64,000 nucleotides of DNA from Brassica napus (taxonomy: Eukaryota; Streptophyta; Magnoliopsida; Brassicales; Brassicaceae), in NCBI RefSeq assembly GCF_020379485.1, contig NW_026015668.1, forward strand, positions 542,147-606,146, given 5' to 3'. The notes under the pieces are model-generated. The model ran no database searches. It was not told the origin of the DNA and saw only the letters and a program-made list of their open reading frames with translations. The position numbers and the translations under genes are program-made. This document shows positions 17,954 through 64,000 of the stretch, piece after piece; the stretch's first letter is position 1, and every line of letters begins with the position of its first letter.

Positions 17954-18079
17954 CTCGAAGTTCCTGTGTCAGCAGGAAATGACAGAAAACTTTTAGCAAA
18001 TTTAGTAACAAAATCTAAATTAAATTTTAAACTTAATCTAATAGTAATAAGAAAGAGTCTCCGGCAACGGCGCCAAATT

Positions 18080-19461: not shown

Positions 19462-20278
19462 TACTAAGTATCAATCACCACGATATATGATCGATACAAT
19501 CATATCATTCATTATTCCTTCGTATCATCTATTTATATAAATACTAGAGTTTATCCCGCACATAGTGCGGGTATATTTTCATTTTATAAATATTTAATTT
19601 TAATATTATTATATAAATTTAAATATACAATTTATATTTTAGTGTTTAGTATTTTATAACTTTTTAATTTTATTGTTTAAGTTTCTTATTACTTTATTAA
19701 TATAGGGGTTTGTTTTATACATTTTACCTTTTTTATTACGTTTTCGAGTTTTCATAATTTGAAATCATCAAATAAAAAATATTCTTCAACATATGATTTT
19801 TGAAAATATATAGCTGTAGAAATAAATTTTTAACATATGTTAATAACATCATTTGTATAAAACAAATCTGACATGATTAAAAAATTTGAACCCGTTTTAG
19901 TGGTAGATGATAATTTATTTAAATGAAAGCATTATATTATTTAATTACGAAATTAATTAAACAAATATTAAATAAAAATTATTTAAAAATTTAGTAGGAT
20001 TTTGTTAGATTTTTCTCAACAGATTTTGTTATAACTGAAAATAAAATTCAAATCTATAGTTAAAATTAATTTATTATTAATATTCCTATTAATTATTATA
20101 TCATATTATGTGATTAATGAAATGGTCCTAGTAGACTTCTAAATAGTAGATAAAAATGGTACTTCTCTTTTAATAGAGAAGATATATATTGTCATTAACT
20201 AGAATACCCTAGCAAGTCACCTGTATATATACTCTCATACTCTGTATTGTTAAGTTATTAATTCAATATATTCTTATA
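19462..20278 (+). repeat. Copia 3' LTR, interrupted by Helitron
   Basis: Removing 19544-20182 leaves 178 bp that match the 5' LTR at 3075-3250. It begins TACTAAGTATC and ends TTCTTATA, followed by TSD TCATG. Confidence 0.92.
19544..20182 (-). mobile_element. Non-autonomous Helitron, 639 bp
   Basis: On the minus strand it starts TCTTCTCTATTAAAAGAG and ends with a 7-bp-stem hairpin CCCGCACTATGTGCGGG (19555-19571), a 7-nt spacer and CTAG. It sits between host A and T, as Helitrons do, and makes no TSD. The intact 5' Copia LTR is a true empty-site copy: GTAAACA then TATATATTG is uninterrupted at about 3150-3164. The interior is AT-rich and has no RepHel coding. It would depend on a rolling-circle transposase in trans. 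Confidence 0.93.
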
Positions 20279-20283
20279 TCATG

Positions 20284-20879
20284 TGTATGTGTCTAAGCTT
20301 AATACACACGTCTAACCCTAATTCAACGTGAGCTTAATAATTTATAATGGGTTTACTAAAATTTTATGGGCACGAATATGTACACTTGCAAATTTACATT
20401 TTTTTAAGACCTTTTTTTGCTATTTGCCTAATTACTACAATTTCTCTGCAAGTTGAGGTTTAGATACTGACCAATTATTTAAAGAGTATCTCATAATTAT
20501 GAAATCAATATTTTGACATATTTATATTTTATAGTTAAAATGTAAATGATAGAAAACTTGAATCAATTACAATAATATACATGGCCCAAGAGTTTCAGTG
20601 AGTTTCTGGTTTGAAATATCTATTAATGAAGTCGTTCCAATATAGTCATGAGTTTTAGTATCACAATTTCTTTTCCTGGTTAATAGCTTCTTTTGTTTAT
20701 CAGCATTCAAAGTCTTTTATATGATTGTATTCTACATTTGCAATGTTTCAATACCAATTCAACAAATCCATCTACAACTTTACCGATTAAATCTCACATC
20801 TCAGTTGTCTTTGGTCTACTGTCTTAAATCCAGCCATGGAGGACAAATGCAGCAGAACCATCCCCCAAAAATCAACCAA
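20284..20879 (+). other. AT-rich upstream region of the CIA30-like pseudogene
   Basis: No separate gene seen. By position this is the ancestral promoter and 5' UTR of the pseudogene beginning at 20880, now bordered on the left by the Copia TSD. Confidence 0.5.
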
Positions 20880-20943
20880 ATGGCTTCTGTCTTTGTCCAG
20901 ACAAGGCTAAAGACTTCTAGAGTCAATACAGTTTAGGGTATTC
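20880..20943 (+). pseudogene. CIA30/Rossmann plastid protein pseudogene, first part
   Basis: The start codon at 20880 opens MASVFVQTRLKTSRVNTV, an Arg/Ser/Thr-rich, acid-free start that looks like a chloroplast transit peptide. It is followed by an in-frame TAG. The text is cut at 20943 by a Copia element and resumes at 34147 after the duplicated TATTC. Joining the two sides gives continuous, though stop-bearing, sequence into the body of the pseudogene. Identity rests on the downstream part. Confidence 0.65.
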
Positions 20944-21558
20944 TGAAGATGTATATTCTGTATCAGTTCGTGAAGTACTACAGGAGGTAGTACATGCGTG
21001 TGTCATGAAGATGGGCTTGGTTGAAGTTCGTGTTATGTGATGTCCGTGGGCTTGTTAGGCTTAGAGAATAAGCAATATGTTTATTGGAAGATTTACATTA
21101 AGTGTAAATGATATTACCTGAAGAGGAAAAGGCAAGAGAGTTATTCCTTGGGAGAAAAAGAAAAGTTGCTTAAGTTGCTTTTGGAAGAACTTGGAGAGCA
21201 AGTTCTGATTATGTATACATGGAGGACATGTCTCTATGGTAAGAGTCATCTCTGCAAAAAGAAAAAACCAGAGAGATCATTGTTTGGTGCTTGTGTGATC
21301 AAGCCTTTGGTGTTGCTGCTCTGCATTAGGTGCTGACGTAGTTGTTGAAGTACTTCCAGAGTGTTGGAAGATTGAAGTCTAGATTCAGGGGGAGTTTAGA
21401 CTCTATGGTGAGTTTTAGCTTAGGATTGGGGTAATCCTAAAAGATTCTTGTAATAGAAAAGATTGGTGTAAGACTTTCTTGTTCTAGTGAATTCGAAAAG
21501 GGAAAAAACTTGTATCTTGTTTATTTCTGCATTTTACTCTGACCTCACTGCACTTACA
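20944..21558 (+). repeat. 5' LTR of gag-only Copia, with PBS
   Basis: It matches 33503-34141 along its length. The right copy carries a short extra segment near 33950-33985. The PBS for initiator tRNA-Met begins at 21561. Confidence 0.94.
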
Positions 21559-21665
21559 ATTGGTATCAGAGCGGGTCACCTAAGTTACTGGTGAGATCAT
21601 AAGGGTGAGGACAGAAACTGGTTCCGGAAGAAGGACAAGAGTTTCAAGTAGATCTTGAGGATTGA

Positions 21666-21841
21666 TGGAGAGAGTTAAGTTGCCTTTCAAGAAGCGTTTC
21701 TCATGGAATGGACGAAACAAATCTTTTATGGGGTTCATGGTTGATGATAACATGAAGGAGAAAGAAAGAAGAGGAAGATTTTGGGGTTCTCCAAAGGTTC
21801 TACAGTGCCATGAATGCAAAGGTTTTGGGCATGCAGCTGAT
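21666..21841 (+). pseudogene. Copia gag, part before CACTA insertion
   Basis: The frame opens MERVKLPFKKRFSWNGRNKS and ends in the first half of a CCHC zinc knuckle, CHECKGFGHAAD, where the CACTA element enters. Across the insertion the knuckle is completed as E-C (GAG TGT at 32371-32376), restoring C-X2-C-X4-H-X4-C. The N-terminal UBN2 part of a normal gag is already missing. Confidence 0.85.
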
Positions 21842-22420
21842 CACTACAAGAAAACATCAAAGATTCTGAGGGAAAAAATCGTCGGAATTTCGTCGGAATA
21901 CCGTTATTCCGACGACATACCGACGAAACAAGTCGTCGGAAATAATTCCTCGGAATTTCTTATTTCGTCGGAAATCCCTCGGAATTTTCCGACGGAATTC
22001 CGAGGAAACAAATTTCCGAGGATATTCCGAGGACCATTATTTTGTCGGAAATGTCCTCGGAATATACCGAGGGAGAACTTCGTCGGGATATTTCCTCGGA
22101 CGTTCATCGATCGATGCGTTTTAGACATATATACATCGATCGATAGGAATATACCGACGGAACTGTTCCCTCGGATTATACCGAGGGACATGTTCCCTCG
22201 GAATATACCGAGGAACACGTTCCTCGGAATATTCCGAGGAACACGTTCCTCGGAATATTCCGAGGGAACAGTTCCTCGGTATATTCCGAGGAACATGTCC
22301 CTCGGTATATTTCGAACTTTTTTTTGTAAACAGATCGATCGATGGATTTATGTCCAAAAACGCATCGATCGATCGCGTGAAAAATATAATTAATTTCCTC
22401 GGAATGTAAAAAATATTAAT
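21842..22420. repeat. Left terminal and subterminal repeats of CACTA D
   Basis: After the TIR there are many head-to-head and head-to-tail copies of CGGAATATTCCGAGG variants, plus TCGATCGAT words at about 22107-22144 and 22333-22375. In known CACTA elements such subterminal repeats bind the TnpA-type protein. The region is near-palindromic, so it creates spurious ORFs on both strands. Confidence 0.9.
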
Positions 22421-22559
22421 TTTTTTAAAAAAATAAAATTTCTGAAATTTAAATTCGAAAATATGAAATTAAAATTAAAATTAAAATCATATTAATTAAT
22501 ATTCAAAGTTTCACAAATAAAAATAAAACATTCCGAGTTTTTGGGAAAAAAAAAATAAT

Positions 22560-24957
22560 CTACGGGTCTGGCACGTCCGGGAACACCTCGTTCGGGTACA
22601 TCCTCTGCATCATCTCCATCATTTGCTGGTTCAGCCTCCTCTGTGCCTCATAGCCCGCCTGTTGAGCCGCCATCTGGGTCTCCAACAAAGATATACGATC
22701 ATCTTTGTCCTTCAACTGAGCCGTAAGTACTTCTGGATCAACAAAGGGCGGTGGTGCAGAAGAAGGAGGAACCGACCGGGTGCGACGACCCAAACCGACC
22801 AAACGTCCCTTTTTCTTTGGAACCGACTGAATAGAAAATAGCCAAATTTACAAATTTAAACAAAAAAATAAATGAATTGAACTTTAAAAAAAAAGAACTT
22901 ACGGATTCAACGATTTCGTTGATTCGACACCGAGACAAGTTGGTCGAAGCCGTCGAAGCGTCATCCTCGGTTTGAAGCTGAGACACTTCGTCTACCACCT
23001 GAGTTTGGACCAGGTCGACCACGTCCCTCACAAGACCGTCATCAATCTGGCCGGTCTTCTTGTTGGTATACGCCCTCCTCATTAGGGCGAGATCATCAAC
23101 CGGCTCGCCATCATTTTCTTCCGCCTTGAAAAAAAACATAAATTAAAGAAACATTAGAAATTAGAAGAAATGCACAATAAATTAAAATTCTGAAACTCAA
23201 ATAATTGAAGAAAAAACATTTGAACTTACCATGCGATCTCCCAGAGTGGCAATAGATTGAGCACCCAAGTTATGCTTGTAGATGCCCTTCCCTTTACGGT
23301 CGCTCCTGCGGTTGGTGGAGTTGGTGGAAGAAGTTTCTTTCGTCTCTTCCTTATCCCAATGCGCACACAACTCCTTCCAGACCGTGTCGTTCATCGACTT
23401 TGGTACCTTTTAATATAAAAAAAAATAGTTTATTAAATTTAAAAATAGTTTAATAAATTAAAAAATTGTTTAATAAATTAAATCGAACCTTATTGATTTC
23501 CCACTTTTTCTTCCACTCGTGGATCTGCTTCCCATAGTTGTCCATAACTTTATGGACGAAGTGGTGATAGATAAAGAGCGTCTCATCGGAATTCCAGTTG
23601 AACTCTTGCTGAAAAAAAAACACAATTAGTAAAAAATTAATATTAAAGATTAAAAATATAAGTAAAAAATTAGAATACTTACCGCAAACTGACGAAACCA
23701 CAGAACCTGCTTTTCGGTAGGGAAGTGAGTGAAAGTCGGATGTCCCTTGTCGAGGGCCGAGTACATCATACGGTTGATCCATGCGCTGATCCCGTTCCCG
23801 GATCGGTTGAACCTAATAAAAAGAACAAACGGTTAATAATGAATCAAAATTTAAAGAAAAAAAAATGTTTAATTACCATGTTTGACCATGTCCATGTGGA
23901 TACGGAGTGAGATACGGAAGATGGTCACGACCGGGCTGTTGAACCAAATCCGCAACACTCATCACTCCTGGAGGACCCGGAGGAGGAGGAGCGGGTGCAG
24001 CAGCGGGAGCGAGAGGAGCAGGAGCGGGTGCAGCAGAGGGAGATGTATGGTAGGAGCTGTGGGGCGAAGGGGAATCCTGAAAATGGGTGGAATCCCGAGA
24101 CTGGCTCCCCGTACCACCACGACCACGACGCTGTCGAGGCCGGATCTGATCATCATGAGACCTGTAAATTAAAAAAAATATATTAATAAATACAGAAATA
24201 TATAAATTATTTTTTTTTTTAAAGTCTCAAATAATTTAATCACAAAAAAATATTTATAGATATTAAAAATATTTAATAAATATATAAAAATAGTTCTAAT
24301 AAAAAAAATAGTTTTAATAAATAAAAAATAGTTCAATAATTACAAAAAATAGTTTTAATAATATATATATATATTAAAAATATTTTTAAATCCCAAATAA
24401 TAGTTTTTAATCAAAAAAAAGTTGTATAGATATTAAAAAATGTTTTGTAAAATCCAAAAAATCGAATTTATATACAAAATTTTTTTTGTAAAATCCAAAA
24501 AATCGAATTTATATAGAAAAATCGTTTTGTAAAATACAAAAATCGATTTTATATACTAAAATCGATTTTCTAAATACAAAAAAATAAAAAAATAATAAAA
24601 AAATTATAAATCAATTCAACAAAACAAATTATTCAACTAAATCACAATTCTAAACCTATTATACAACCAAAAATCACAATCCTAACCAATCACCTTAACA
24701 AAAATCTATCAAAACTCCACAAAAACCTAACAAATAGAATCTAAGAGAGTGGGATAGGGTCCTTACATGATTTGTGTAAGAAAAGGGGGAGATCGCCGGA
24801 GATATCGTCGGATTTCAGGGGGAAATCGCCGGAAAAAAAGAGAGGAATCGCGCAGAGGAAGAAGAGAGAAATGGGGAAGAAGAAGTGGCTCGTGGTTATA
24901 AAACCTAGGGTCCGACGGACATTTTCCGTCGGAATTCCGTCGGAATTTTAATTTCAA
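22560..24957 (-). CDS. CACTA second transposase (Transposase_24/Ptta-En/Spm type), 7 exons, 400 aa
   Basis: Predicted minus-strand exons are: first exon ending at 24767 with the bases AT, then 23877-24161, 23683-23812, 23489-23608, 23230-23406, 22903-23124 and 22560-22826. All junctions have GT...AG, and the sum is an open frame of 401 codons including stop. The start codon is split: AT at the end of exon 1 and G as the first base of exon 2. The protein begins [17 protein letters not shown], is Arg/Pro/Ala-rich to about residue 95, has the plant-transposase block [19 protein letters not shown] with KWEINKVPKSM and [14 protein letters not shown], a lysine-rich SVPKKKGR near 313 (possible nuclear signal) and a Gln/Met-rich coiled coil near the end ([19 protein letters not shown]). 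It probably binds the subterminal repeats. The 5' UTR extent is a guess. Confidence 0.85.
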
Positions 24958-25503
24958 TTTTCGCGAAATATTTGCCCGGTAAAATGAAAATATATGCCGA
25001 GGAAATTCCGACGGATAGTAAAGTATCCGTCGGAATTTCCTCGGAATATTCCGAGGAAATACCGAGGAACAAGTGTTTGGGGTTTCAAAACATCAATTTT
25101 TTTGGGGTTTTTCATTTGTTATACAATTGTAATGTATACCATTGAGGATTCTTTGTATAGATTAGCATAAACCATGAAATAACAAATTTCAAAACTAATT
25201 GAAAGTATTCCCTATACCATTCATTAAAACGTATAAGTGTTTCTCTTATGTTGTGGGATTTCGTTCATACAATCGGAAAAGTGTTAATTAAGGGGTAAGG
25301 AACAAATTTTAGACTTCATAAGTAACGTAAGACACTTAATAAGGGTTATGTAGGTGTTATTCAAACCGCAAAACGTTTTTTTCGGTTTACAACCCCTATT
25401 TCCTCGGAATTTCCTCAGACTATTCCGAGGAAACCCTTGTCTTCCTCGTAATTCCGTCGGAATATTCCGAGGAAATTCCGAGGAACTAGTGTTTGGGGTT
25501 TCA
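24958..25503. other. CACTA D spacer upstream of the 400-aa gene
   Basis: No gene. It contains scattered TTCCGAGG-type words and a unique stretch (about 25085-25385) that matches the spacer of CACTA G at about 62075-62400 in inverted orientation, showing that it is ancestral to the family. Confidence 0.75.
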
Positions 25504-26075
25504 ATCTTGTATGTTTTTTTATAAACGCATCGATCGATGCGTTTGTTTAGAAAAACCCATCGATCGATCACCAGATGGACGAAAGCCGTAAGAATGTGAT
25601 CGATCGATTGGATTGAACAATCGATCGATGGAACAAATCTGAAGCCTTCCTCGGAATATCCTCGGAAAATCTTGTATGTTTTTTTATAAACGCATCGATC
25701 GATGCGTTTGTTTAGAAAAACGCATCGATCGATCACCAGATGGACGAAAGCCGTAAGAATGTGATCGATCGATTGGATTGAACAATCGATCGATGGAACA
25801 AATCTGAAGCCTTCCTCGGAATATCCTCGGAAAATCTTGTATGTTTTTTTATAAACGCATCGATCGATGCGTTTGTTTAGAAAAACGCATCGATCGATCA
25901 CCAGATGGACGAAAGCCGTAAGAATGTGATCGATCGATTGGATTGAACAATCGATCGATGGAACAAATCTGAAGCCTTCCTCGGAATATCCTCGGAAAAT
26001 CTTGTATGTTTTTTTATAAACACATCGATCGATGCGTTTATGTGAAAAAACGCATCGATCGATGGGTGTGCGAAC
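25504..26075. repeat. 165-bp tandem repeat array, about 3.4 copies
   Basis: Unit starts at 25504, 25669, 25834 and 25999 are spaced exactly 165 bp. Each unit has the palindrome CGCATCGATCGATGCG, a second CGCATCGATCGAT, two more TCGATCGAT words and a CCTCGGAATATCCTCGG stretch. The unit length is a multiple of three and the units lack stops in one minus-strand frame, which explains the 268-aa repeat ORF there. I regard that ORF as incidental. The array lies about 500 bp upstream of the ORF-1-like gene and, like that gene, is absent from CACTA G. Confidence 0.93.
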
Positions 26076-26267
26076 AGAATTATAAGGCAAAACCCGACCT
26101 TTTTGGATCTAAACCTCAGAACTCTCATCCCCTCCGATTTCCCCTATAATTCGCCCCCCCCCCCTTTTCTCTCTCTATAATCATCCGATTTGAACAATTT
26201 TGGGCTCTATTCCCCTTGATTTTTCGAGCTCTACCTGATTCCTACACTCGTTTTCACCCTAAGACAG

Positions 26268-26572
26268 GTATACTCCGCGAATCTCCACATTCTGAAATCG
26301 TGTTCTTGAGCAATTTTTTGGGTTTTGTGTATTTCTTATTTCCGTGTTGATTCCTTGATCAAATATGCATGAAACAGATGTTTAAACATGGAATAGAACA
26401 CAATTGTCTGTGATCAACGAGTTTGTAACAGGATTTGAGATGATTTACGGATTGACAATTTTTTTGAATTTGGTTTTTTTTTATCACAACTCGATTTCGC
26501 TTTTCATTTTCATGTTGCTTTGAGTTCTTAATTGATTATAACCATGTTGAGAGCAATGATTCTATTTTGTAG
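26268..26572 (+). other. Probable 5'-UTR intron of the ORF-1-like gene
   Basis: CTAAGACAG/GTATACTCC at 26267/26268 and TTCTATTTTGTAG/AG at 26572/26573 form good plant donor and T-rich acceptor sites. The intron would end three bases before the ATG at 26576. A pyrimidine-rich, TATAA-containing stretch (about 26150-26180) lies upstream of the inferred first exon. The intron is inferred from sequence only. Confidence 0.55.
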
Positions 26573-26575
26573 AGA

Positions 26576-28024
26576 ATGAAGCGCACAAAAATGTCAGCAA
26601 AGAAGAACCCACAAGAAGAGGGTTCGTCTCATCTGGAGAAGCAAAGGCCAAAGAAGTGGGATAAGTCTGATACCACCCACTACAACAACATGAAGAAGGT
26701 AGCCGTTCCGGCTACACAACTAGCATGTCCTGAGACGATGACAATATTGGGAATCCAAGCAGACATTGAAGGACTGTTCCAGAACATGGGTCTAGGCCAA
26801 CTATGCAACCTCAACGAACCCACTTATCCGGAGTTGGTACGCCAGTTCATAGCATCCGCATACGTCACCCGTCCCGATGATAGGCATCAGGAAGGTTTTC
26901 TGGCATTCGTAGTGCAGAAAGTATACTATGAGGTAACTTTCACAGACCTCTGCGGACTATTTGGATTGAGTGCAGGGGAGAGGACATCTGGTCTTTATTG
27001 GACTTCAGAGCTGTTGAACTTCTGGGAAACGATTGGCACAGGGGTTTATAGATCTTCTCAGGCAAAGGAGTCACTTATCCGGAGCCCAGTACTGAGATAT
27101 GCCACACGCCTCATTGGCTCATTGCTATACGGGACAACCACAGCCGCATCAGTCACGCAATGGGAGTTGTGCCTCCTGTACCAAGGTGTGAGGCATTTGC
27201 TACCGGCATTTGGAAACTCTACATTCCCACCTGCTACTGCCTTCAACATGGGAGCGGTGCTGGCCGCAAACTTAGCAGGATACAAGGGGAAAGTAACCAA
27301 AAAAAAGAGCAATGCATGTGGATTTGGTGCAGTGATTACTCGGATCCTTAGACATGTGGGTGTAGACTGCAAGAACCAGGAGGTAGCACTGGACAGATCG
27401 AACAACATTGCTTGGAACTACCTGGATGTCATTTCTCTAGTAAGTAAGGAGTTCATAGCTGGTCCCCACTCGAGGATCCATCGGGATGGTCCTTACGTCT
27501 ACGTATTCCAGGACCGAGCGAAGAAAACACTCTACTGCCACCTACCTCAGATCGGTCTCACTTCTCTACTTTCAGAGGCTGCAGTTGAGTTCCTACCCCC
27601 TGCTACCGCACTAGTAGACAAGCCATCCTTCTTCACGCCAAAATATCAGACCAAAGGCAAGGGCGTGGTTGATGAAGAAGGAGAAGATGAGGCTGCACAA
27701 GCCATTCCAGATGATTCACAACCCCATCAGCTACTCCCATCAGACTCCAGCCAGTACAAGCTGCAAGAGCTTCCACCGAACGCCACTTCGCGCCAGCAAC
27801 AACATTGGAGAGATCAGAGCATAAAGACAAACAACGACATGCTACACAAGATCTGGGCTGCCATTTCACGTATCAGGCCGTGTCGTTGCCAAAAGGATGA
27901 TGTAGTTCATCGGGACAACTCTCCATCCACCTCTGGTTCGGGTTCGAGTGGTACACACAGGGTAAGAAAGAGGTCCAAGAGACCCAACGATGCAGGAACA
28001 TCTGGAGCAGGAGACGAGGAGTAG
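26576..28024 (+). CDS. Athila ORF-1-like protein carried by a CACTA element, 482 aa
   Basis: This is an uninterrupted single-exon ORF on the strand opposite both transposase genes. Residues about 40-370 resemble the Arabidopsis retrotransposon (ATHILA) ORF-1 family. Typical blocks are YPELVRQFIASAYV, VTFTDLCGLFGLSAGE, NFWETIGTGVYRSSQAKESL and SPVLRYATRLIGSLLYG. The C-terminal 110 residues are acidic, Gln-rich and Ser/Gly-rich, with a basic HRVRKRSKRP segment near 465 that could be a nuclear signal. The molecular function of the family is not established. Its placement inside a coding-complete CACTA, absence from sister element G and intact frame suggest a captured gene under some constraint. 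A functional annotation beyond the family name would be guesswork. Confidence 0.85.
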   Translation: MKRTKMSAKKNPQEEGSSHLEKQRPKKWDKSDTTHYNNMKKVAVPATQLACPETMTILGIQADIEGLFQNMGLGQLCNLNEPTYPELVRQFIASAYVTRPDDRHQEGFLAFVVQKVYYEVTFTDLCGLFGLSAGERTSGLYWTSELLNFWETIGTGVYRSSQAKESLIRSPVLRYATRLIGSLLYGTTTAASVTQWELCLLYQGVRHLLPAFGNSTFPPATAFNMGAVLAANLAGYKGKVTKKKSNACGFGAVITRILRHVGVDCKNQEVALDRSNNIAWNYLDVISLVSKEFIAGPHSRIHRDGPYVYVFQDRAKKTLYCHLPQIGLTSLLSEAAVEFLPPATALVDKPSFFTPKYQTKGKGVVDEEGEDEAAQAIPDDSQPHQLLPSDSSQYKLQELPPNATSRQQQHWRDQSIKTNNDMLHKIWAAISRIRPCRCQKDDVVHRDNSPSTSGSGSSGTHRVRKRSKRPNDAGTSGAGDEE

Positions 28025-28304
28025 GAGCTATCACCATCTATTTTATTTTCTTTTCTATTCTAACGTTTTATGGTCTTATTTTCTGTTAATTTTGAACTGA
28101 GTTTTTTTTTGGGTTTCTTAATTATGAGTTCGTATTTCTTTTACATGGTTTCTTCGTTTTATTTGGTTGTGTTCTGAGTAGTTTTTAATTCGTATTCAGC
28201 TTTGCCTTGCTAGATAAACCAAATAACTATTATTCGAGGAAAGAGGTTATATCAAGTGTTCCTCGGAATTTCCTCGGTATTTCTTTAAAAAAAAACAAAT
28301 AAGT
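28025..28304. other. Short spacer between converging ORF-1-like and TNP2 genes
   Basis: A T-rich 3' flank of the ORF-1-like gene, then TTCCTCGGAATTTCCTCGG near 28260. The two genes converge here. The junction near 28270 corresponds to the edge of the segment that CACTA G lacks. Confidence 0.6.
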
Positions 28305-31300
28305 TCAATGGTAGTCTGTTTCCGAGTCATCATCACCAGATGAATCTGAATCTGGATCTTCGTGAAACTCTCCAATCACTGGTTCATCCTCTACGTGAAC
28401 GACGGCTTCCTCTCCAAAGTCGGTTAAATCGACTACAAGGCCAACTCCAGCTAAATCTTCTGCTGCACTTAAGTTGCCGGATGTGCTTGGTTGTAGTGGG
28501 TCTTCCAGCTCAGAACTTCCCTGAACTCGGCCTCTCGGGTTGAGTCTTGTAACAGTAACCCATGGATCATCTCTGTTTCTTACCCGGGGGTACTTGATAT
28601 AACAAACCTGTAACATTTAGAAAAATTATAAATTAATACACATGATGATGAATCATTCTGAATAATTAACATTTAATTACCTGATCGGCCTGAGAAGCAA
28701 GAATGAAAGGATCATAATATTGCAGCTTTCGCCTCGAATTTACTGATGTAACACCAAATGCATCTGTTCTCACACCTCGATCTGGGGTGTTGTCGTGCCA
28801 ATCACAATAGAAAACAGTACAGCGCAATCCAACCATGCCCAAATACTTAATTTCCAAAATCTCATGTATGTGTCCGTAGTATACATCATCTCCTGATGCA
28901 GAACAAACGCCAGCATCATAAGTCGTACTCGAACGTCTCCTCTTCTGAGTTGTGAATGCATATCCTCGAGTACAAAATCTCGGATATGACTTCACAACAA
29001 AGTTTGGTCCAACGACCATCTCACGTATCCAATCGTCAAATGTTTCACCTCTGGCCAAACCAGCAGACACCTATTAATAGCACATATATATATATTATAT
29101 CAATAAATGTGAATTAGTATAAATATGTGATAAAATATATTTTAATTTGTTTAAAGCACTCACATAAGTAAACATCCATCCACTAAATTCTCTCTGCTTC
29201 ATTTCTTCTAGTTCGTCCTCTGTGGCGTATCTATACTCGAACCGCTTTTCTGCCATGAAAATCCTGTATATGATGACAATAATGTAATTAATTAAGATTT
29301 AAATTTCAACTTGTTAAAATAAAAATTTGTAAGCTCATTTATTTACCTCTCATATTGAAGAACGTCTTCGCAGTTGGTGAGCAAATATGTTTGCAAATGA
29401 CTGCGCTCCTGCTCAGTAAGTCGACGGTCCTTTGGTTTTCCGCTAAGTCGTCCAACATCTGTGAAAATGTCTGGAACCGTAACATGATATGCTGCCCGTT
29501 CGCCTCTATCATCATGCCGAGCAGGTCTTCTGTTTTTGGTCTGAACTTCTGCTGGAAAGTAGTACTCGGCAAAGTTTGAAGTTTCTTCATTGATCATCTG
29601 TGCGACTATAGAACCTTCCACCCTACTTAAATTTTTCACCATCTTCTTCAAATGGAACATATACCGCTCATACAGATACATCCATCTATACTGCACAGGA
29701 CCACCAAGTTCCAATTCTCTTGCCAGGTGAATAACAAGATGCTCCATAACATCAAAAAATGAGGGAGGAAATATCTTCTCAAGGTTGCACTGAATCACGG
29801 CTATGTTAGTCTTCAAATTTTCAATACCTTCAAGAGTCACTGATCTCGTGCATAAATCGCGGAAGAAACCACTTATCCCTGCAATTGCTTCATGAACATT
29901 TCGTGGTAATAGTTCCTTGAAGGCGAACGGAAGGAGGCGCTGCATCATTACATGGCAATCGTGGCTTTTCAAGCCAGTAAACTTTCCTTCCTTTCTGTCG
30001 ATACAGTTACGCAAATTTGATGCGTAACCGTCTGGAAATTCCACATCGTTTGAAATCCAATCAAAGAACGCATCTTTTCCCGCTGCATCAAGTCGGTATA
30101 TGGGAAAAGGAGCCCTACCATTTTCATCAACATGAAGTTCTGAACGAGCACATATATCGACTAAATCCAGTCTTGACTTCAAATTATCCTTTGTTTTACC
30201 TTGAACATTAAGGATCGTGTTCATGAGATTGTCAAAAAAGTTCTTCTCAATATGCATGACATCTAAATTATGCCTTAGCAGATGATCCTCCCAGTATGGC
30301 AGATCCCAGAAAATACTTTTTTTGTGCCAGTTATGTAGTTCTCCAACAGCATCTACCGGAAAACGCTCATGTCCACCGACTTCTGGCGTCCTTTCTGCAC
30401 CAAAATCTCTTAGTTGTATCTTCAAATCTTTCCCACAAATTTCCGGAGGTGGACTGTCAAACACCCTCTTGTTCTTCGTAAACAAATTCCTACTCCTACG
30501 ATATGGATGATCAGGTGGTAGGAATCTCCTGTGACAGTCAAACCAACACGTTTTCCTTCCGTGTTTTAGTTGGAAAGCATCAGTGTTATCTTGACAATAT
30601 GGACATGATAGCCTTCCATGCGTTGTCCATCCAGACAACATACCATATGCTGGAAAATCACTTATTGTCCACATTAGTACTGCCCGCATTTGAAAGTTTT
30701 CTTTACACGAAACATCGTATGTTTCAGCACCTTGAGCCCATAGTTGTTGCAACTCATATATTAGTGGCTGAAGAAACACATCAAGTGATCTCTTAGGATG
30801 CTCTGGTCCGGGAACGAGAATCGAGAGGAACAAAAACTCTCGTCGCAAGCACAAGTTTGGGGGGAGGTTGTATGGTGTAAGAATGACGGGCCATAGAGAA
30901 TATTGTCTTCCACTCTTGCCAAACGGACTAAAACCATCAGTACATAATCCAAGGTAGACATTTCTTCTCTCATACGCAAAGTCGGGATACTTTGATTGGA
31001 AATGCTTCCACGCTTTTGCATCTGAAGGATGTCTGATCTCACCATCTGTTGAGTGCTCCGCATGCCATCTCATTGGTTGCGCTGTGCGTTCAGACAGATA
31101 CAACCTCTGCAACCTTTCCGTCAAAGGTAAATACCACATCCTTTTATATGGCACTGGAACTCTTCCACTCGTATCTTTATAACGAGGCTTTCCACAAAAT
31201 TTGCATGTAACCCGCTGTTCATCCGCCCTCCAATAAATCATGCAGTTGTCGCTGCATACATCTATTACCTGATACGATAAACCAAGACCAGCTACGAGTT

Positions 31301-31922
31301 TCTGAACCTCGTAGTATGAACCAGGAGCTACATTATCCTCGGGTAGAATACCTTTTACAAAATCAGCAATCGCATCCACACAGTCTTCAGCCAAATTATA
31401 ATCTGTTTTAATGCCCATCAATCTTGTAGCAGATGATAAAGCTGAATGACCATCTCTGCAACCTTCGTACAATGGTTGCTTTCCAGCATCCAACATATCA
31501 TAAAATCTCCTAGCTTCTGCATTGGGTAAATCTTCCCCTCTAAAATGATCATTTACCATCTGCTCAGTACCTACACCATAATCTACATCCGTTCTAATTG
31601 GTTCTTCTAATCTAACCGCTGGCTGAGGTTCGCTAGTACTACCATGTTCATAATCAGTTTCCCCATGATGATACCAAATTTTGTAACTTCGTGTAAACCC
31701 ACTCAAATATAGATGAGTCCAAACATCCCACTCTTTAATAACCTTTCTATTTTTACAATTAGAGCAAGGACATCTTAACTTACCTGTTTTTGCTTCCGGT
31801 TGTCGGTGAACTAACCCCATGAATTCGGTTATACCTCGTTGGTATTCTTCCGTAAGCAATCTCGTGTTCGGATCCAAATGAGGTCGATCGATCCAAGAAC
31901 GGAAATAATTTGAAGAAGACAT
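28305..31922 (-). CDS. CACTA TNP2-type transposase, 4 exons, 1122 aa
   Basis: Minus-strand exons 29347-31922, 29164-29263, 28681-29070 and 28305-28607 join at GT...AG sites. Lengths 2576, 100, 390 and 303 give one continuous frame of 1123 codons including stop. It starts MSSSNYFRSWIDRPHLDPNT (transposon-associated domain, with CPCSNCKN near residue 50). The Transposase_21/TNP2 core follows, with VCSDNCMIYWRAD, LCTDGFSPFGKSGRQYSLWP, LPPNLCLRREF, WTISDFPAYG and LDVMHIEKNFFDN (near residue 550). A DUF4218 region (about 650-770, FPPSFFDVMEHLVIHLAREL) and a DUF4216 region in exon 3 (YYGHIHEILEIKYLG, YDPFILASQADQV) complete it. The acidic Ser/Asp tail ends the protein. It should cut and join at the CACTA ends. 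Length is normal for autonomous elements. Confidence 0.93.
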
Positions 31923-32008
31923 ATTTTTTATGAATCAAATTCGTGTGTAAATAGAGTAAGAGGGAGGATGAAGATATGGAGTGAATGAAGAGGAAGAGGA
32001 GTGCTTGT

Positions 32009-32016
32009 TTATATAG
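32009..32016 (-). promoter_or_regulatory. TATA box of CACTA D transposase gene
   Basis: TATATAAAC on the minus strand lies about 90 bp upstream of the TNP2 start codon. The sister element G has TATAAATA at 58253-58260 in the equivalent place, so the site is conserved. Confidence 0.65.
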
Positions 32017-32029
32017 ATTAAATCCTGCC

Positions 32030-32367
32030 GACATACCGAGGAAATTCCGACGGAATTCCGACGGAAAAGGCTAGTTCGTCGGAATTTCCTCGGAATTTTG
32101 TAAAATCCCCCAACGGCTCTCCAACGGCTATAATATTTCCTCGGAATTCATCGGTTTTTTCCGAGGAACACATTGTTCCTCGGAATTTCCTCGGAATATT
32201 CCGACGGACTGAGGTTTCCTCGGAATTCCGTCAGTATATTTCGAGGAAATTCCGAGGAACCCCAATTTTTTGTTTCCTCGGAATTTCCTCGGAAATTCCT
32301 CGGTATATTCCGAGGATTTCATTTTCCGTCGGAATGTCCGTCAGAATACCGCTGTTTTCTTGTAGTG
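32030..32367. repeat. Right terminal and subterminal repeats of CACTA D
   Basis: Dense TTCCGAGGAAATTCCGACGG-like direct and inverted words end in the inverted TIR (GCTGTTTTCTTGTAGTG). The outermost 30 bp match the left end of CACTA G (57891 onward) in reverse complement. Confidence 0.92.
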
Positions 32368-32370
32368 GAT

Positions 32371-33333
32371 GAGTGTGCAAATCTGTAGAAGCGGAAGAAG
32401 AAGACAGTCACCAAGAGTGATTCTAAAAGTAAATCTGATTATGGTGAGGAGCTAAAGAGTATTGTGGCGTTCACAACCTTTATGTCTGGTTCTAAGACGA
32501 AATCTGCAGTGGGATCTGCTTCAGCGTCTGTGTCAGGGTCTTCATGTGGAGGTGATGATGATGCTGGAAGTGATGATGAAGGTGAAACCTTTGATCTTGC
32601 TGGGAATTATGAAAAGCTGTATAAGCATTGGCTAAAGCTGGTTGAGACGAATTCAGATTTGGCTAAGGAGAAAGCCAAGCTAGAAGCTCAAGTTGCTGAA
32701 GCTCTTAAGTATGCTTCAGAGAAAGAAGAAGAAGCACATTAGGCTGGTGCTCAACTTGCAGAAACTCAGAAGAATTTGAGGATGCTGAATAATGGGACGA
32801 ATCAGCTAGATCATCTTCTCAGTATTGGGCAAATTGATAGATGTGGCCTTGGATATCAAGGAGAATGTTTGAAAAGTGAAGGTGTTTTTGTACCAGCATG
32901 TAAAACTAAGGATGTAGCTACGTCTGATACAAAGCCTGAGGTTAAGAGGTTTGCTGGGAATGCAACAAATGGGAAGATTGCAGTGAAGCCTGCAACTGGT
33001 GTGAAGAATGTGACTGCTACGCGTACTGCTACGACAACTGCTATGGCGACTGCTACGGCAACTGATACGGCGACTGCTCCAGAGAGAGCTTCTGGATTGA
33101 AGAGTGGATCTCAACAAAGGTTTTGGCCTGTTTGTCATCACTGTGGTGTTGTTGGACACATTAAGCCAAGGTGTTTCAAGTTATTGAGGGAGAAGAATCA
33201 GATGGAGCAAGCTTATGGTATGAGGTGTCATGGTCCTGTATGTTATTCTTGTGGAGTTCAAGGGCATATTCGACGTGACTATTTTAGGTCTGTTCAAGGA
33301 GCTAGGATTTGGGCTCAAGAATACGTGGTCTAG
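32371..33333 (+). pseudogene. Copia gag, part after CACTA insertion
   Basis: It resumes the gag zinc knuckle (ECANL), then a stop and a Lys-rich region. MAFTTFMSGSKTKSAVGS, an acidic segment and a Lys/Glu coiled coil (LKLVETNSDLAKEKAKLEAQ) follow. After another stop comes an Ala/Thr repeat (TATTTAMATATATDTATA). Two further knuckle-like motifs close it: CHHCGVVGHIKPRC (canonical) and CYSCGVQGHIRRDYF (last Cys lost). No protease, integrase or RT text follows before the 3' LTR. Confidence 0.85.
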
Positions 33334-33502
33334 GAGATTTGATCAATATGGGGATGGTGGAATATGATTTCCTCCTCACTTTGGAGGATATGATTCTTCA
33401 TATTAGTTTTTGACCATGATGTGACTCATAGGGGGAGATTGAAGACGTGGCTTTTCTATCCAGAGGTGATGAGTTCACGTGCATAGTCAAAAAGGGGGAG
33501 AT

Positions 33503-34141
33503 TGAAGATGTATATTATGTATCAGTTCGTGAAGTACTACAGGAGGTAGTACATGCGTGTGTCATGAAGATGGGCTTGGTTGAAGTTCGTGTTATGTGAT
33601 GTCCGTGGGCTTGTTATGCTTGGAGAAGAAGCAATATGTTTATTGGAAGATTTACATTAAGTGTAAAGGATATTACTTGAAGAGGAAAAGGCAAGTGAGT
33701 TATTCCTTGGGAGAAAAAAGAAAGTTGCTTAAGTTGCTTTTGGAAGAACTTGGAGAGTAAGTTCTGATTATGTATACATGGAGTACGTGTCTCTATGGTA
33801 AGAGTCGTCTCTGCAAAAAGAAAAAAAAACGAAGAGATCATTGTTTGGTGCTTGTGTGATCAAGCCTTTGGTGTTGCTGCTCTGCATTAGGTGCTGACAT
33901 AGTTGTTGAAGTACTTCCAGAGTGTTGGAAGATTGAAGTCTAGATTCAGGAAGAATTTAACTCGGGGTCGGGAAGATTCTGATAAACAAAAGTCTAGACT
34001 CTAGGGTGAGTTTAGCTTAGTACTGGGGTAATCCTAAAGGATTCTTGTAATAGTAAAACTTTCTTGTTTTAATGAATTCGAAAAAAGAAAAACTTATGTC
34101 TTGTTTATTTCTGCATTTACTCTGAACTCACTGCACATACA
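33503..34141 (+). repeat. 3' LTR of gag-only Copia
   Basis: It aligns with 20944-21558. The purine-rich AAAAAGGGGGAGATT precedes it, and the TSD TATTC follows at 34142. Confidence 0.94.
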
Positions 34142-57890: not shown

Positions 57891-58252
57891 CACTACAAGA
57901 AAACAGCGGTATTCTGACGGACATTCCGACGAAAAATGAAATCCTCGGAATTCCCGAAGAATTTTCGAAGATATTCCGAGGAAACACAAAATTTGGTTTC
58001 CTCGGAATTTTCTCGAAATATACCGACGGAATTCCGAGAAATATCAATCCGTCAGAATATTCTTATGGAATAGCGAGGAAAAATGTATTTATTCGGAAAA
58101 AACCAATGAATTCCGAGGATATATTATAGCCGTTAGAGAACCGTTGGAGAGCCGTTGGGGATTTTTAAAAATTCTGAGGAAATTCCGACGAACTAGCAGT
58201 TGGCATCGGAATTCCGTCGGAATTTCCTCGGTCTGTCGGCAGGATTTCAAAC

Positions 58253-58260
58253 TATAAATA
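58253..58260 (+). promoter_or_regulatory. TATA box of CACTA G transposase
   Basis: TATAAATA lies about 85 bp upstream of the ATG at 58344, in the same place as the TATA motif of element D. Confidence 0.6.
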
Positions 58261-58343
58261 CAAGCACCCTCTTCCTCTCATTCACTCCATATCTTCATCC
58301 TCCCTCTTACTCTCTTTACACACGAATTTGATTCATAAAAAAC

Positions 58344-61300
58344 ATGTCTTCTTCAAATTATTTTCGTTCTTGGATTGATCGACCTCATTTGGATCCGAAC
58401 ACTAGATTGCTTACGGAAGAATACCAACGAGGTATAACCGAATTCATGGGGTTAGTTCACCGACAACCGGAAGCAAAAAAGGTATGTTAAGATGTCCTTG
58501 CTCTATTGTAAAAATAGAAAGGTTATTAAAGAGTGAGATGTTTGGACTCATCTATATTGAGTGGGTTTACACGAAGTTACAAAATTTGGTATCATCATGG
58601 GGAAACTGATTATGAACATGGTAGTACTAGCGAACCTCAGCCAGCGGTTAGATTAGAAGAACCAATTAGAATGGATGTAGATTATGGTGTAGGTACTGAG
58701 CAGATGGTAAATGATCATCTTAGAGGGAAGATTTACCCAATGCAGAAGCTAGGAGATTTTATGATATGTTGGATGCTGGAAAGCAACCATTGTACGAAGG
58801 TTGCAGAGATGGTCATTCAGCTTTATCATCTGCTACAAGATTGATGGCATTATTAAAACAGATTATAATTTGGCTGAAGACTGTGTGGATGCGATTGCTG
58901 ATTTGTAAAAGGTATTCTACCCGAGGATAATGTAGCTCCTGGTTCATACTACGGGGTTCAGAAACTCGTAGCTGGTCTTGGTTTATCGTATCAGGTAATA
59001 GATGTATGCAGCGATAACTGCATGATTTATTGGAGGGCAGATGAACAGCGGGTTACATGCAAATTTTGTGGGAAGCCTCGTTATAAAGATACGAGTGGAA
59101 GAGTTCCAGTGCCATATAAAAGGATGTGGTATTTGCCTTTGACAAAAAGGTTGCAGAGGTTGTATCTGTCTGAACGTACAGCGCAACCAATGAGATGGCA
59201 TGCGGAGCACTCAACATTGGTGAGATCAGACATCCTTCAGATGCGAATCGTGGAAGCATTTCCAATCAAGTATCCCGACTTTGCGTATGAGAGAAGAAAT
59301 GTCTACCTTGGATTATACTGATGGTTTCATCAGCCCGTTTGGCAAGAGTGGAAGACGTATTCTCTATGGCCAGTCATTCTTACACCATACAACCTACCCC
59401 CAAACTTGTGCTTGCGACGAGAGTTTTTGTTTCTCTCGATTCTCGTTCCCGGACCAGAGCATCCTAAGAGATCACTTGATGTGTTTCTTCAGCCACTAAT
59501 ATATGAGTTGCAACAACTATGGGCTCAAGGTGCTGAAACATACGATTTTCGTGTAAGAAAACTTTCAAATGCGGGCAGTACTAATGTGGACAATAAGTGA
59601 TTTTCCAGCATATGGTATGTTATCTGGATGGACAACGCATGGAAGACTATCATTCCCATATTGTCAAGATAACATTGATGTTTTCCAACTAAAACACGGA
59701 AGAAAAACGTGTTGGTTTGACTGTCACAGGAGATTCCTACCACCTGATCATCCATATCGTAGGAGTAGGAATTTGTTTACGAAGAACAAGAGGGTGTTTG
59801 ACAGTCCACCTCCGGAAATTTGTGGGAAAGATTTGAAGCACAACTAAGAGATTTTGGTGCAGAAAGGACGCCAGACGTCGGTGGACATGAGCATTTTCCG
59901 GATAGATGCTGTTGGAGACCTACATAACTGGCACAAAAAGTATTTTCTGGGATCTGCCATACTGGGAGATCACTGCTAAGGCATAATTTAGATGTCATGC
60001 ATATTGAGAAGAACTTTATTGACAATCTCATGAACACGATCCTTAATGTTCAAGGTAAAACAAAGGATAATTTGAAGTCAAGACTGGATTTAGTCGATAT
60101 ATTGCTCGTTCAGAACTTCATGTTGATGAGATGGTAGGGCTCCTTTTCCCATATACCGACTTGATGCAGAGGGAAAAGATGTGTTCTTTGATTGGATTTC
60201 AAACGATGTGGAATTTCCAGACGGTTATGCATCTAATTGCGTAACTGTATCGACAGAAATGAAAGAAAGTTTACTGGCTTGAAAAGCCACGATTGCCATG
60301 TAATGATGCAGGCGCCTCCTTCCGTTTGCCTTCAAGGAACTATTACCATGAATGTTAATGAAGCAATTGCAGGGATAAGTGGTTTCTTCTCCCGCGATTT
60401 ATGCATGAGATCATGACTCTAGAAGGTATTAAAAATTTGAAGACTAACATACCCGTGATTCAGTGCAACCTTGAGAAGATATTTCCTCCTCCCATTTTTT
60501 GATGTTATGGAGCATCTTGTTATTCACCTGGCAAGAGAATTGGAACTGGTGGTCATGTGCAGTATAGATGGATGTATCTGTATGAGCGGTATATGTTCCA
60601 TTTGAAGAAGATGGTGAAAAATTTAAGTAGGGTGGAAGGTTCTATAGTCGCACAGATGATCAATGAAGAAACTTCAAACTTTGCCGAGTACTACTTTCCA
60701 GCAGAAGTTCAGACCAAAAAAAGAAGACCTGCTCGGCATGATGATAGAGGCGAACGGGCAACATATCATGTTATGGTTCCAGACATTTTCACAGACGTTG
60801 GACAACTTAGCGGAAAACCAAAGACCGTCGACTTACTGAGCAGGAGCGCAGTAATTTGCAAACATATTTGCTCACCAACTGCGAAGATGTTCTTCAATAT
60901 GAGAGGTAAATAAATTAGCTTACAAATTTTTATTTTAACAAGTTGAAATTTAAATCTTAATTAATTACATTATTGTCATCATATGTACAGGATTTTCATG
61001 GCAGAAAAGCGGTTCGTATATAGATACGCCACAGATGACGAACTAGAAGAAATGAAGCAGAGACAATTTGCTGGATGAATGTTTACTTATGTGAGTGCTT
61101 TAAACCAATTAAAATATCAATTATCACATATTTATACTAATTCACATTTATTGACATAACATATATATGTGTTATTAATATGTGTCTGCTGGTTTGGCCA
61201 GAGGTGAAACATTTGACGATTAGATACGCAAGATGGTCGTTGGACCAAACTTTGTTGTGAAGTCATATCCGAGATTTTGTACTCGAGGATATGCATTCAC

Positions 61301-61945
61301 AACTCAGAAGAGGAGACGTTCGAGTACGACTTATGATGCTGGCGTTTGTTCTACATCAGGAGATGATGTATACTACGGACACATACATGAGATTTTGGAA
61401 ATCAAATATTTGGCATGGTTGGATTGCGATGTACTGTTTTCTATTGTGATTGGCACGACAACCTCTAGATCGAGTGTGAGAACAGATGCATTTGGTGTTA
61501 CATCAGTAAATTCGAGGCGAAAGCTGCAATATTATGATCCTTTCATTCTTGCTTCTCAGGCAATCAGGTAATTAAATGTTAATTATTCAGAATGATTCTT
61601 CATCATGTGTATTAATTATAATTTTACTAATAATTTTTTAATGTTACAGGTTTGTTATATCAAGTACCCCCGGGTGGAACAGAGATATCCATGGGTTACT
61701 GTTACAAGACTCAACCCGAGAAGCCGAGTTCAGGGAAGTTCTGAGCTGGAAGACCCACTACAACCAAGCACATCCGGCACTTAAGTGCAACAGAAGATTT
61801 AGCTGAGTTGGCCTGGTACTCGATTTAACCGACTTCGGAGAGGAAGCCATCGTCACGTAGAGGATGAACCAGTGATTGGAGAGTTTCACCAAGATCCAGA
61901 TTCAGATTCATCTGGTGATGATGACTCGGAAACAGACTATCATCG
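58344..61945 (+). pseudogene. TNP2 transposase of CACTA G, broken
   Basis: It is collinear with the D transposase: MSSSNYFRSWIDRPHLDPNT, SGFTRSYKIWYHHGETDYEH, CMIYWRADEQRVTCKFCGKP, WTISDFPAYGMLSGWTTHG, RYMFHLKKMVKNLSRVEGSI, and in the third exon CTRGYAFTTQKRRRSSTTYD. Numerous one- and two-base indels (for example near 58487, 58733, 58850, 59220, 59850, 60110 and 60320) and several stops destroy the frame. Introns are kept at equivalent positions. The D copy supplies the reference. Confidence 0.92.
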
Positions 61946-62560
61946 ACTTTATTTTTTTTTTTATAGAAATACCGAGGAAATTCCGAGGGAAGATAGGTTT
62001 TCCTCGGAATTTCCTCGGAATAGACCTTGTCGATTTAGGGATTTGATTATAGAGTCCGAGGGAATTCCGAGGAAACCCTTAAGTGTTTTAAAACCGAAAA
62101 CAACGTTTTGCGGATTGAATAACACGTATATAACCTTCATTGAGTGTCTTAACAGATTATGAAGTCAAACTTTGGTTTTTAACCCATAACAAACACTTTT
62201 ACGATTGCATGAACGAAAACCACACAACATAGAGAAACACTTATACACTTAATAAACGGTAAAGGGAATAGTTACAATTATTTTTGAAATTTTGTTATTT
62301 CATTGTCTATGATCATCTATACAAAGAATCCTCAATGGTATGCATTACAATTGTATAAGAAATGAAATACGGCAAAAAAATGATATTTTGAAACCCCAAA
62401 CCCTGTTTCCTCCTCGAATTTCCTCGGTAATTACGAGGGTATTCCGAGGAAACATGGTTCCCTCGGATTTTTCATTTAACCGGGTAAACCAAGCCGCCAA
62501 ATATTTTGCAAAAATTGAATTATGATTTCCGAGGAAAATCCGACGGAGATATTTATCATT
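61946..62560. other. CACTA G spacer between the two transposase genes
   Basis: It contains TTCCGAGGAA words and unique sequence collinear with D at about 24960-25450 (inverted). There is no trace of the ORF-1-like gene or the 165-bp repeat. Confidence 0.8.
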
Positions 62561-62599
62561 CAGAGGAATTCCGACGGACATTTTCCGTCGGACGCCTCA

Positions 62600-64000
62600 T
62601 TTTATTAGGTCGAACCCGATCTTCTTCCCCATTTCTCTCTTTCCTCTCCTCCTTCCTCTCCGCCGAGTCTCTCTTTCTCTCTCGACAATTTCCGGCGAAT
62701 CCATCCTAATCCTCCTCAATTTCAGTCACTGCATCATGTATGAACCCTATCCCACTCTCTTAGGTTAGATTTAATAGGTTTTTAAGTAGATTTGATGATT
62801 TTGGAATGATATTTATAGATTTTTGTTGGGGTGAATGGTAGGATTGTGTAAAATCGAGTTTGATTATGGTATTCACTTGATTTGGAATTTTTTTTTAGTT
62901 TTTATTAATTTTGTGGTTTAAAAATCTATTTAATAATTATGTATATATAATATGAAAACTTTTTTGTATATAAAATCTATTTTTTGCATTATAAAATCAT
63001 TTATATATTTATTAAACATTTTTAATATCTATAAAAAAATTTTGTGATTAACAACTATTATTTGAGATTTTTTTTTTTAAAAATATATATCTATATATAT
63101 ATAATATAATTTCTATATTATAATTAAACATTTTTAATATATTAAACTATTTTTTGTATTATTAAACTATTTTTTATTTATTAAAACTATTTTTTATAAT
63201 TATAAACTATTTTTTATTTATTAAAACTATTTTATTTTCTTAAAACTATTTTTGTTTTATTAAACTATTTTTTTTATTTATTAAAACTATTTTTTGTAAT
63301 TATTAAACACTTATATTTTTTGTGATTAAAAACTATTTTTTAAATATGTTTTTTATTATTAAAATTATTAGAACTAATTTTTAAATATGTTTTTTTAATT
63401 TACAGGTCTAATGATGATCAGACCCGGCCTCGACAGCGTCGTGGTCGTGGTGGTACGAGGAGCCAGTCTCGGGATTCCAGCAGATTCAGGATTCTTCGCT
63501 TCGCCCACAGCTCCTACCATACATCTCCCTCTCCATTTTCCCGCTCTTGCTCCTCCCACTCCCGCTGCTGCACCCGCTCCTGCTCCTCCGGGTCCTCCGG
63601 AGTTATGAGTGTTGCGGAGTTGGTTCGACAGCCCGGTCGTGACCATCTTCCCTATCTCACTCCGTATCCACATGGACGGGGTCAAACATGGTAATAAACG
63701 TATTTTTTTTTTCATTAAATTTGATTCATTATTAATAATTTGTTCTTTTTATTAGGTTCAACCGATCCGGGAACGGGATCAGCGCATGGATCAACCGTAT
63801 GATGTACTCGTCCTCGACAAGGGACATCCGACTTTCACTGACTTCCCTACCGACAAGCAGCATCTGTGGTTTCGTCAGTTTGCGGTAAGTATTCTAATTT
63901 TTTACTTATATTTTTAAATCTTTAATATAATTTTTCTACTAATTGTGTTTTTTTCAGCAAGAATTCACTGGATTCCGATGATAAGCTCTTTATCTATCAC
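62600..64000 (+). pseudogene. Second transposase of CACTA G, frameshifted, truncated by window end
   Basis: Exon 2 (63406-63690, 285 bp) has the same length as in D and reads [16 protein letters not shown] once the AT of exon 1 (CATCAT/GTATGA near 62738) is joined, again splitting the start codon. Exon 3 (63756-63884) is one base shorter than in D (130 bp), a frameshift near the YSSS/YSAL codons. Exon 4 starts at 63958 (AAGAATTCAC) and runs out of the window. The intron-1 region (about 62740-63405) is AT-rich. Confidence 0.85.

Follow-up and report, generated by a model that had tools for sequence, protein, structure and literature searches.

Transposons of the CACTA (En/Spm) type that encode TNP2 and TNPA, for instance Bot1 of Brassica oleracea, have terminal inverted repeats (TIRs), a 3-bp target site duplication (TSD) and subterminal repeats. 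In B. oleracea, CACTA transposons are reported to show the lowest share of fixed insertions (9%) and recent bursts of activity (PMC7459127). Foreign sequence carried by CACTA elements is described for Pack-CACTA transposons, which are non-autonomous and hold gene fragments (PMC13317346). In VANDAL transposons, which are Mutator-like elements (MULEs), the VANC proteins bind short motifs in fast-changing tandem repeats of their own noncoding DNA and remove silencing there (PMC5735166, PMC10398659). Here we describe element D, a complete CACTA transposon in a stretch of 64,000 nucleotides of Brassica napus DNA (the window), which has TIRs, a 3-bp TSD, TNP2 and subterminal repeats in common with such elements. 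Compared with a typical CACTA element, D adds a third gene, of retroelement type, with a putative promoter array of its own. Whereas Pack-CACTA transposons hold gene fragments, D keeps the transposase frame, and the captured unit appears to be a complete gene of another transposon class. We consider it likely that an Athila-type ORF1 transcription unit entered a CACTA element as genomic DNA and is now the regular third gene of a young, high-copy subfamily; a VANC-like role for it is proposed with much less confidence. No description of an Athila-type gene inside a CACTA element was recognised in searches of the open-licence literature.

The third gene is part of a cassette with the following components, in window coordinates.
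25425..28275, plus strand: cassette, absent from the sister copy G, both edges within D's own CCTCGGAATTTCCTCGG-type repeats
25503..26063, unstranded: 165-bp tandem array of 3.4 copies; a full unit contains four ATCGATCGAT sites and a single TTCCTCGGAATATCCTCGG block
26130..26267, plus strand: putative leader exon (start approximate), ending in CTAAGACAG and resembling an Athila ORF1 leader
26268..26572, plus strand: putative leader intron, GTATAC...TTTTGTAG, with its donor in 21 and its acceptor in 22 of 22 assessed copies
26576..28024, plus strand: ORF1-like gene of 482 amino acids (aa), PF03078, with a basic C-terminal cluster and no stop

The first-pass annotation had reported about 2.8 kb in D, absent from G, with a 165-bp array and an intact 482-aa ORF-1-like gene opposite TNP2, and this description stands. 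The open reading frame (ORF) at 26576-28024 matches the PF03078 ATHILA ORF-1 profile at 157.6 bits (E 6e-46; gathering cut-off 20.2 bits), and its 482 aa compare with 246 aa for the longest ATG-initiated ORF that arose by chance in 2000 Markov shuffles of the cassette region. A search of solved structures by sequence gave one match, at E 0.8, and relatives were found neither in viral_contigs (ORF and TNP2 queries) nor in genome_contigs (ORF query). The gene is convergent with TNP2 and stands head to head with the gene at the TNPA position, so that the array and the adjoining spacer would form a divergent promoter region. The splice-site check behind the intron assignment covered 22 of the 30 copies compared below, with L023-L030 outside it.

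The remaining parts of D are arranged as follows.
21842..32367, minus strand (the sense of TNP2): complete CACTA element D, 10,526 bp, with perfect CACTACAAGAAAACA TIRs
21842..21856, plus strand: 3' TIR, 15 bp, perfect
32353..32367, minus strand: 5' TIR, 15 bp, perfect
21839..21841 (left) and 32368-32370 (right), unstranded: TSD GAT, read directly
28308..31922, minus strand: TNP2 transposase gene, with a main exon at 29343-31922 and 3' exons down to 28308
22563..24780, minus strand: gene at the TNPA position, with several exons, from reading frames and named by position
24891..25424, unstranded: spacer with many CCTCGG / CGTCGG repeats, upstream of the TNPA-position gene
22106..22373, unstranded: 3' subterminal ATCGATCGAT sites, four in number, with none found in the tested cassette-less relatives

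Thus D has TIRs, a 3-bp TSD and TNP2, as well as CCTCGG subterminal repeats that occur at 34 and 27 per kb at its two ends versus 0.2-0.3 elsewhere in the window. The TNP2 main exon is open over 859 aa and contains the domains Transposase_21 (PF02992, 3.2e-77), DUF4218 and Transpos_assoc (Pfam PF02992, PF13960 and PF13963). The multi-exon frames lie at the place expected for TNPA, a label that refers to position only.

The cassette is widespread in the genome to which the window belongs (997 Mb in 3116 contigs). All 88 scored ORF copies, D included, span residues 1-482 without a stop and at 97-100% identity, these being the best 88 of 2258 first-look candidates ranked by ORF score and therefore biased to good copies; with 88 copies, D is not a unique event. 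In each of 30 fetched loci (L001-L030, of which L009 is D), the cassette is flanked by the TNP2 tail on one side and by the CACTA spacer on the other. A census that started from TNP2 scored 53 intact exons, D included, among 10,213 candidates ranked by similarity to D's TNP2, and thus covers only D's close kin. The listed ORF stands at the expected distance in 29 of the 53, and cassette sequence is present in 19 of the 20 that were fetched from the remaining 24. Among copies with a D-like intact TNP2, 49 were thus examined and 48 carry the cassette, which answers the earlier concern that other members with intact transposase might lack it. The exception, L065, lies in an element shortened by an internal deletion, with about 3 kb between TNP2 and the 3' end where other elements have 7.5 kb. 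Thirty different copies underlie the comparisons of array, selection and TNP2 tail that follow (L025 is the L035 element, and L052 is D's TNP2).

Other accounts of the cassette were rejected. It is not a separate transposon, since neither terminal repeats nor a duplication marking it as such were seen and it occupies a single site in 30/30 loci. It is not a whole Athila element, because the ORF in those 30 loci lies between TNP2 tail and CACTA spacer and not beside long terminal repeats (LTRs), pol or integrase. Capture through complementary DNA (cDNA) is set aside because the leader intron is apparently retained. D also contains a 66-bp direct duplication (88%), at 25023-25088 and 25439-25504; the latter copy lies at the left cassette edge, and the duplication may mark the joining event.

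The nearest described gene is ORF-1 of the Ty3/gypsy Athila elements, with which the cassette shares the protein family and, in one clade, the layout of the whole unit; the cassette differs in lying inside a CACTA element, opposite the transposase and without LTR, pol or integrase. In the protein databases, relatives of the ORF fall into two clusters, one close (304 members) and one distant (P0016, 71 members). A database search with a three-protein alignment found no further protein, and one with P0016 added P0020-P0025. In the genome, 85 relatives of P0016 were scored of 2346 candidates, and 71 are without stops, some of them partial. Four P0016-type loci (L046-L049) have the same order in 4/4 cases, namely a frame of 164-171 aa, a noncoding stretch with a GATCGGTCGATC-type tandem array, a leader, a 491-493-nt intron and the ORF. 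The 164-171-aa frame, which has no Pfam match alone, is taken from its sequence as a probable integrase C-terminus. Upstream of L047, the stretch L096 encodes reverse transcriptase, RNase H and integrase domains; its pol frame stops before the start of L047, so that pol is not a single open frame in that copy. The P0016 relatives thus sit in Athila-type elements, with pol domains confirmed upstream of one of the four loci.

The order in the CACTA unit is that of the P0016 type, with an array, a leader ending at ACAG/GTAT, an intron and an acceptor just before the ATG. Over 122 columns the leaders of the two types agree at 68%, and their donor sites are in register; the leader alignment scores 54.0 bits, whereas the best of 300 shuffles gave 36.8. 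The leader intron and promoter region that had been called plausible thus gain by the comparison, as does the proposal that a DNA transposon acquired a retroelement gene. A basic C-terminal cluster, RSKR, is common to the ORF1-like protein and the Athila clade. In a tree of 25 rows, rooted at the midpoint, one branch unites six CACTA-type proteins, of which five come from loci with CACTA context and the sixth is the database protein P0003. It is sister to five P0016-type proteins, and the branch that parts these 11 from 14 other PF03078 proteins has support of 100/100. Because array, leader exon, intron and ORF have the same layout in the P0016-type Athila elements, capture of the entire transcription unit in the form of DNA is probable. 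The donor clade is distant on long branches, and hence the capture would be old or the true donor unsampled.

Since the tree is rooted at its midpoint only and has long branches, it might also be read in the opposite sense, with Athila-type elements receiving ORF1 from CACTA, or both receiving it from a host gene. We regard this as very improbable. The CACTA clade is a single terminal branch, and 92 PF03078 places scored in the genome, at 189-246 bits, exceed the 157.6 bits of the CACTA ORF. The single PF03078 place whose surroundings were checked (L031, one of the 14 other proteins in the tree) is preceded on its own strand by reverse transcriptase, RNase H and integrase, and the env-like position downstream of pol is a known site of extra ORFs in Athila. 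Among the PF03078 loci L031-L034, with 1.5-kb flanks, a tandem array was found upstream of the ORF in L034 only, with a 45-bp unit, and TCGATCGA or TCGGTCGA in none of the four. The L034 array carries CAGCGG/CCGCTG motifs, a hint at family-specific arrays beside ORF1 genes. Two database gene models, P0005 and P0014, join a MADS-box domain to part of the ORF and are probably prediction artefacts from CACTA insertions in MADS genes.

The cassette-less relatives are represented in the window by G.
57891..64000, plus strand: sister copy G, without the cassette and truncated where the contig, and with it the window, ends
61946..62600, unstranded: G spacer occupying the place of the cassette, from comparison with D

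The first-pass annotation had taken D and G to be collinear on both sides of the cassette. On the TNP2 side this is upheld, with windows of 94.5-99% identity and a BLAST match of 94.6% over G 57891-61988. On the other side the match resumes at D 25421 / G 62053, with a mean of 76% over the spacer and the TNPA start; in blocks of 80 columns, the start of the TNPA coding sequence is mostly at 87-96%, with one block at 70%, and the spacer, leader and AT-rich intron between the cassette site and the TNPA coding sequence range from 54 to 92% by block. Thus D and G differ by a whole intergenic module and not just by a clean insertion. As G runs off the contig, its 3' half is not visible, and its TNP2 is broken into short frames, the longest of 139 aa from stop to stop. 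A search with the G spacer found that 22 of 40 scored places, G included (40 of 2087 candidates having been scored), cross the cassette site in one piece of 655-740 bp, and cassette-less copies are therefore common too, G being one of many.

The TNP2 tails of the 30 cassette copies differ by 0.15% on average (maximum 0.84%), and thus the cassette-bearing lineage is young and homogeneous. Those of G (which is also L076) and L077-L079 are 2.3-6.3% from the cassette copies and 0.0-5.7% from one another, and by these sequence comparisons the cassette-less relatives make up a subfamily of their own, more diverged than the cassette copies. In G and L078 the last two TNP2 exons are not intact, but in L077 and L079 they are readable, so that the cassette-less copies are not all dead. 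This last point would suit a history in which the cassette is ancestral to the family and was lost in the lineage of G, for instance by recombination between the CCTCGGAATTTCCTCGG repeats within which both edges lie, and the TNP2 tree, which cannot be rooted, would allow it. We hold such a loss to be unlikely, given that the cassette-less copies are many, are mostly more diverged from one another than the cassette copies are, and have a different spacer and, where tested, a 3' end without the motif.

The array evolves quickly around constant motifs. Each of the 30 copies has 10-22 ATCGATCGAT sites in the stretch equivalent to 25380-26180, and array units are alike within a copy, which is concerted evolution. 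Between L023-L030, which have lower ORF identity, and L001-L022, the array differs by 19.7%, against 7.2% for the spacer, 4.0% for the leader, 1.8% for the leader intron, 0.8% for the ORF and 0% for three TNP2 introns, the array value coming from a rough alignment of copies picked by ORF similarity. Across 15 units, of which three belong to D and the other 12 to six loci, the four ATCGATCGAT sites show no variation in 39 of their 40 columns, versus 61 of 114 columns outside the motifs (Fisher P 5e-8, an optimistic value as the units are near copies), and the CCTCGG block has 8 of 11 columns invariant. Repeats of the CCTCGG type are concentrated at both ends of D and in the spacers of D and G, and their recurrence within the array units ties the array to the repeat system of the CACTA element itself.

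The ATCGATCGAT motif also lies outside the cassette, at the 3' end of the element. All five cassette-bearing elements in the count have it there (four sites in D, three in L035, two in L092 with partial coverage, four in L094 and five in L095), versus none of six cassette-less elements (L080, L083, L084 and L089 complete, L088 and L090 partial), a difference with P of about 0.002 in which the cassette-less 3' ends were joined to their elements by distance only. Omitted from this count were L086, L091 and L093 (no match), L087 (which stops short of where the motif would lie), L081 and L082 (which do not extend to the 3' end), and L085 (four motifs), where the middle of the element was lost by deletion. 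As the two subfamilies differ generally in this region, the absence of the motif from cassette-less ends may be lineage history.

A number of observations count against the capture of a working, VANC-like unit, and the first concern the protein and its donor. The donor clade is only about 34% identical to the CACTA ORF, and the tree, rooted at its midpoint, has long branches (0.83 and 0.86), with a warning from the program of long branches meeting. The ORF protein contains no detectable VANC domain (DUF1985 / DUF287), only PF03078 and a weak PF20167, and both AlphaFold2 models are of low confidence, with mean predicted local distance difference test (pLDDT) scores of 33.0 and 36.6. Selection is a further difficulty. 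The 30 ORF copies represent 11 haplotypes, one of which is common to 16 copies, and the changes among them are 18 nonsynonymous and 11 synonymous (P 0.057); in the C-terminal third, 16 TNP2-selected copies differ from D by 11 nonsynonymous and no synonymous changes, which counts against purifying selection. In the recent copies purifying selection is thus not convincing, and long-term constraint is argued only from the open frame and from a layout kept since the divergence from the Athila clade.

These counts suit a passenger, that is, an Athila gene caught by chance that rides along, with copy number owed to the transposase alone and the array an inherited promoter. Two of 19 TNP2-selected copies, moreover, have a defect in the frame, a frameshift in L057 and in L073 a stop that falls four codons short of the normal end. 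However, the 19 were not picked by their ORF, and in the other 17 the C-terminal 140 codons, or as many of these as are covered, contain neither a stop nor a frameshift; 88 of 88 scored ORFs are open, albeit in a list ranked by ORF score. In addition, the motif sites are kept while the array diverges, the motif recurs at the 3' end outside the cassette, and the gene layout has persisted through about 66% protein divergence from the Athila clade. A mere passenger therefore seems rather improbable to us.

The last point against a VANC-like unit is the abundance of the motif. Pairs of ATCGATCGAT at 15-45 bases number 12,898 per strand genome-wide versus 3 for the reversed control, and a host or general factor, or else ORF1 proteins as an entire class, may bind ATCGATCGAT given this abundance beyond the CACTA family. 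The array might then be a promoter or enhancer for a host or TNPA-type factor, the ORF1 protein having some other role, such as transposition accessory, and no contact with the array. The CCTCGG-type repeats woven into the array units are possibly TNPA-type sites, and ATCGATCGAT clusters occur in the LTRs of an element at 12624-19400 (direct repeats 12624-13967 and 18079-19400), where no PF03078 gene was found. From these sequences, several transposon families seem to use the ATCGATCGAT palindrome. On the other hand, the motif was not found at the tested cassette-less CACTA 3' ends, and in the P0016-type Athila relatives a diverged ORF1 lies beside mostly GATCGGTCGATC instead of the ATCGATCGAT of the cassette, as would be expected if protein and motif change together. 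On balance we find this explanation somewhat doubtful. In the window, ATCGATCGAT pairs span 13038-26063, and the TGGCGCCGTTGCCGG-like primer site of the LTR element at 12624-19400 is one that we take to be typical of Athila/Tat.

Capture of a complete Athila-type unit as genomic DNA remains the reading we prefer, supported by the same array, leader, intron and ORF layout in the Athila clade; the direction of transfer and the expression of the cassette are both inferred. The unit that entered the CACTA element would have comprised the motif array, leader exon, leader intron and ORF, and would then have become the regular third gene of the young, high-copy subfamily. Its basic product may enter the nucleus and bind the palindromic sites that are clustered both in the array and, in cassette-bearing copies, at the 3' end; there the bound protein would keep noncoding regions open against silencing, as VANC does for VANDAL. 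This binding and anti-silencing role is the leading functional reading, put forward tentatively. It is proposed because the cassette combines an accessory basic protein, a motif array in a divergent promoter region, fast concerted change of the array with constant motifs, and a second motif site. The two systems share an accessory protein and a short motif in noncoding tandem repeats that expand, contract and diverge fast (PMC5735166, PMC10398659). They differ in that the cassette belongs to another superfamily, has no detected DUF1985/DUF287 and uses a motif that is not private to its family, its anti-silencing activity being putative.

The surroundings of D complete the description.
20944..34141, plus strand: copia element hosting the D insertion, with LTR-like repeats at 20944-21558 and 33503-34141

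The insertion lies within the zinc-knuckle codons of a copia-type gag, the zinc knuckle being the basis on which the superfamily was assigned, and both flanks still join as one CCHC finger (CHECKGFGHAADEC). Elsewhere in the window, a 191-bp tandem array of 4.9 copies (92% matches) occupies 43877-44804, with a further TNP2 fragment not far away (47876-48568).

To our knowledge, no function has been assigned to Athila ORF1 (PF03078). A high-copy, intact and movable ORF1, together with a conserved motif array and a cassette-less control subfamily in one genome, makes that function testable. For annotation, Brassica proteins close to the ORF and named 'Arabidopsis retrotransposon Orf1 C-terminal domain-containing' are probably CACTA genes. 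In a bolder extension, to which we attach rather little credence, a movable anti-silencing or chromatin-opening module, consisting of a DNA-binding ORF1 protein and its target motif, would pass between class I Athila and class II CACTA elements, and its capture would have let one CACTA lineage, which also gained the 3' motif, amplify in Brassica beside cassette-less relatives. The passage of an entire gene, with its regulation, between DNA transposons and LTR retrotransposons would, if true, alter the view of how accessory genes of transposons spread, and in Brassica the ORF1 cassette may help CACTA elements to escape host silencing.

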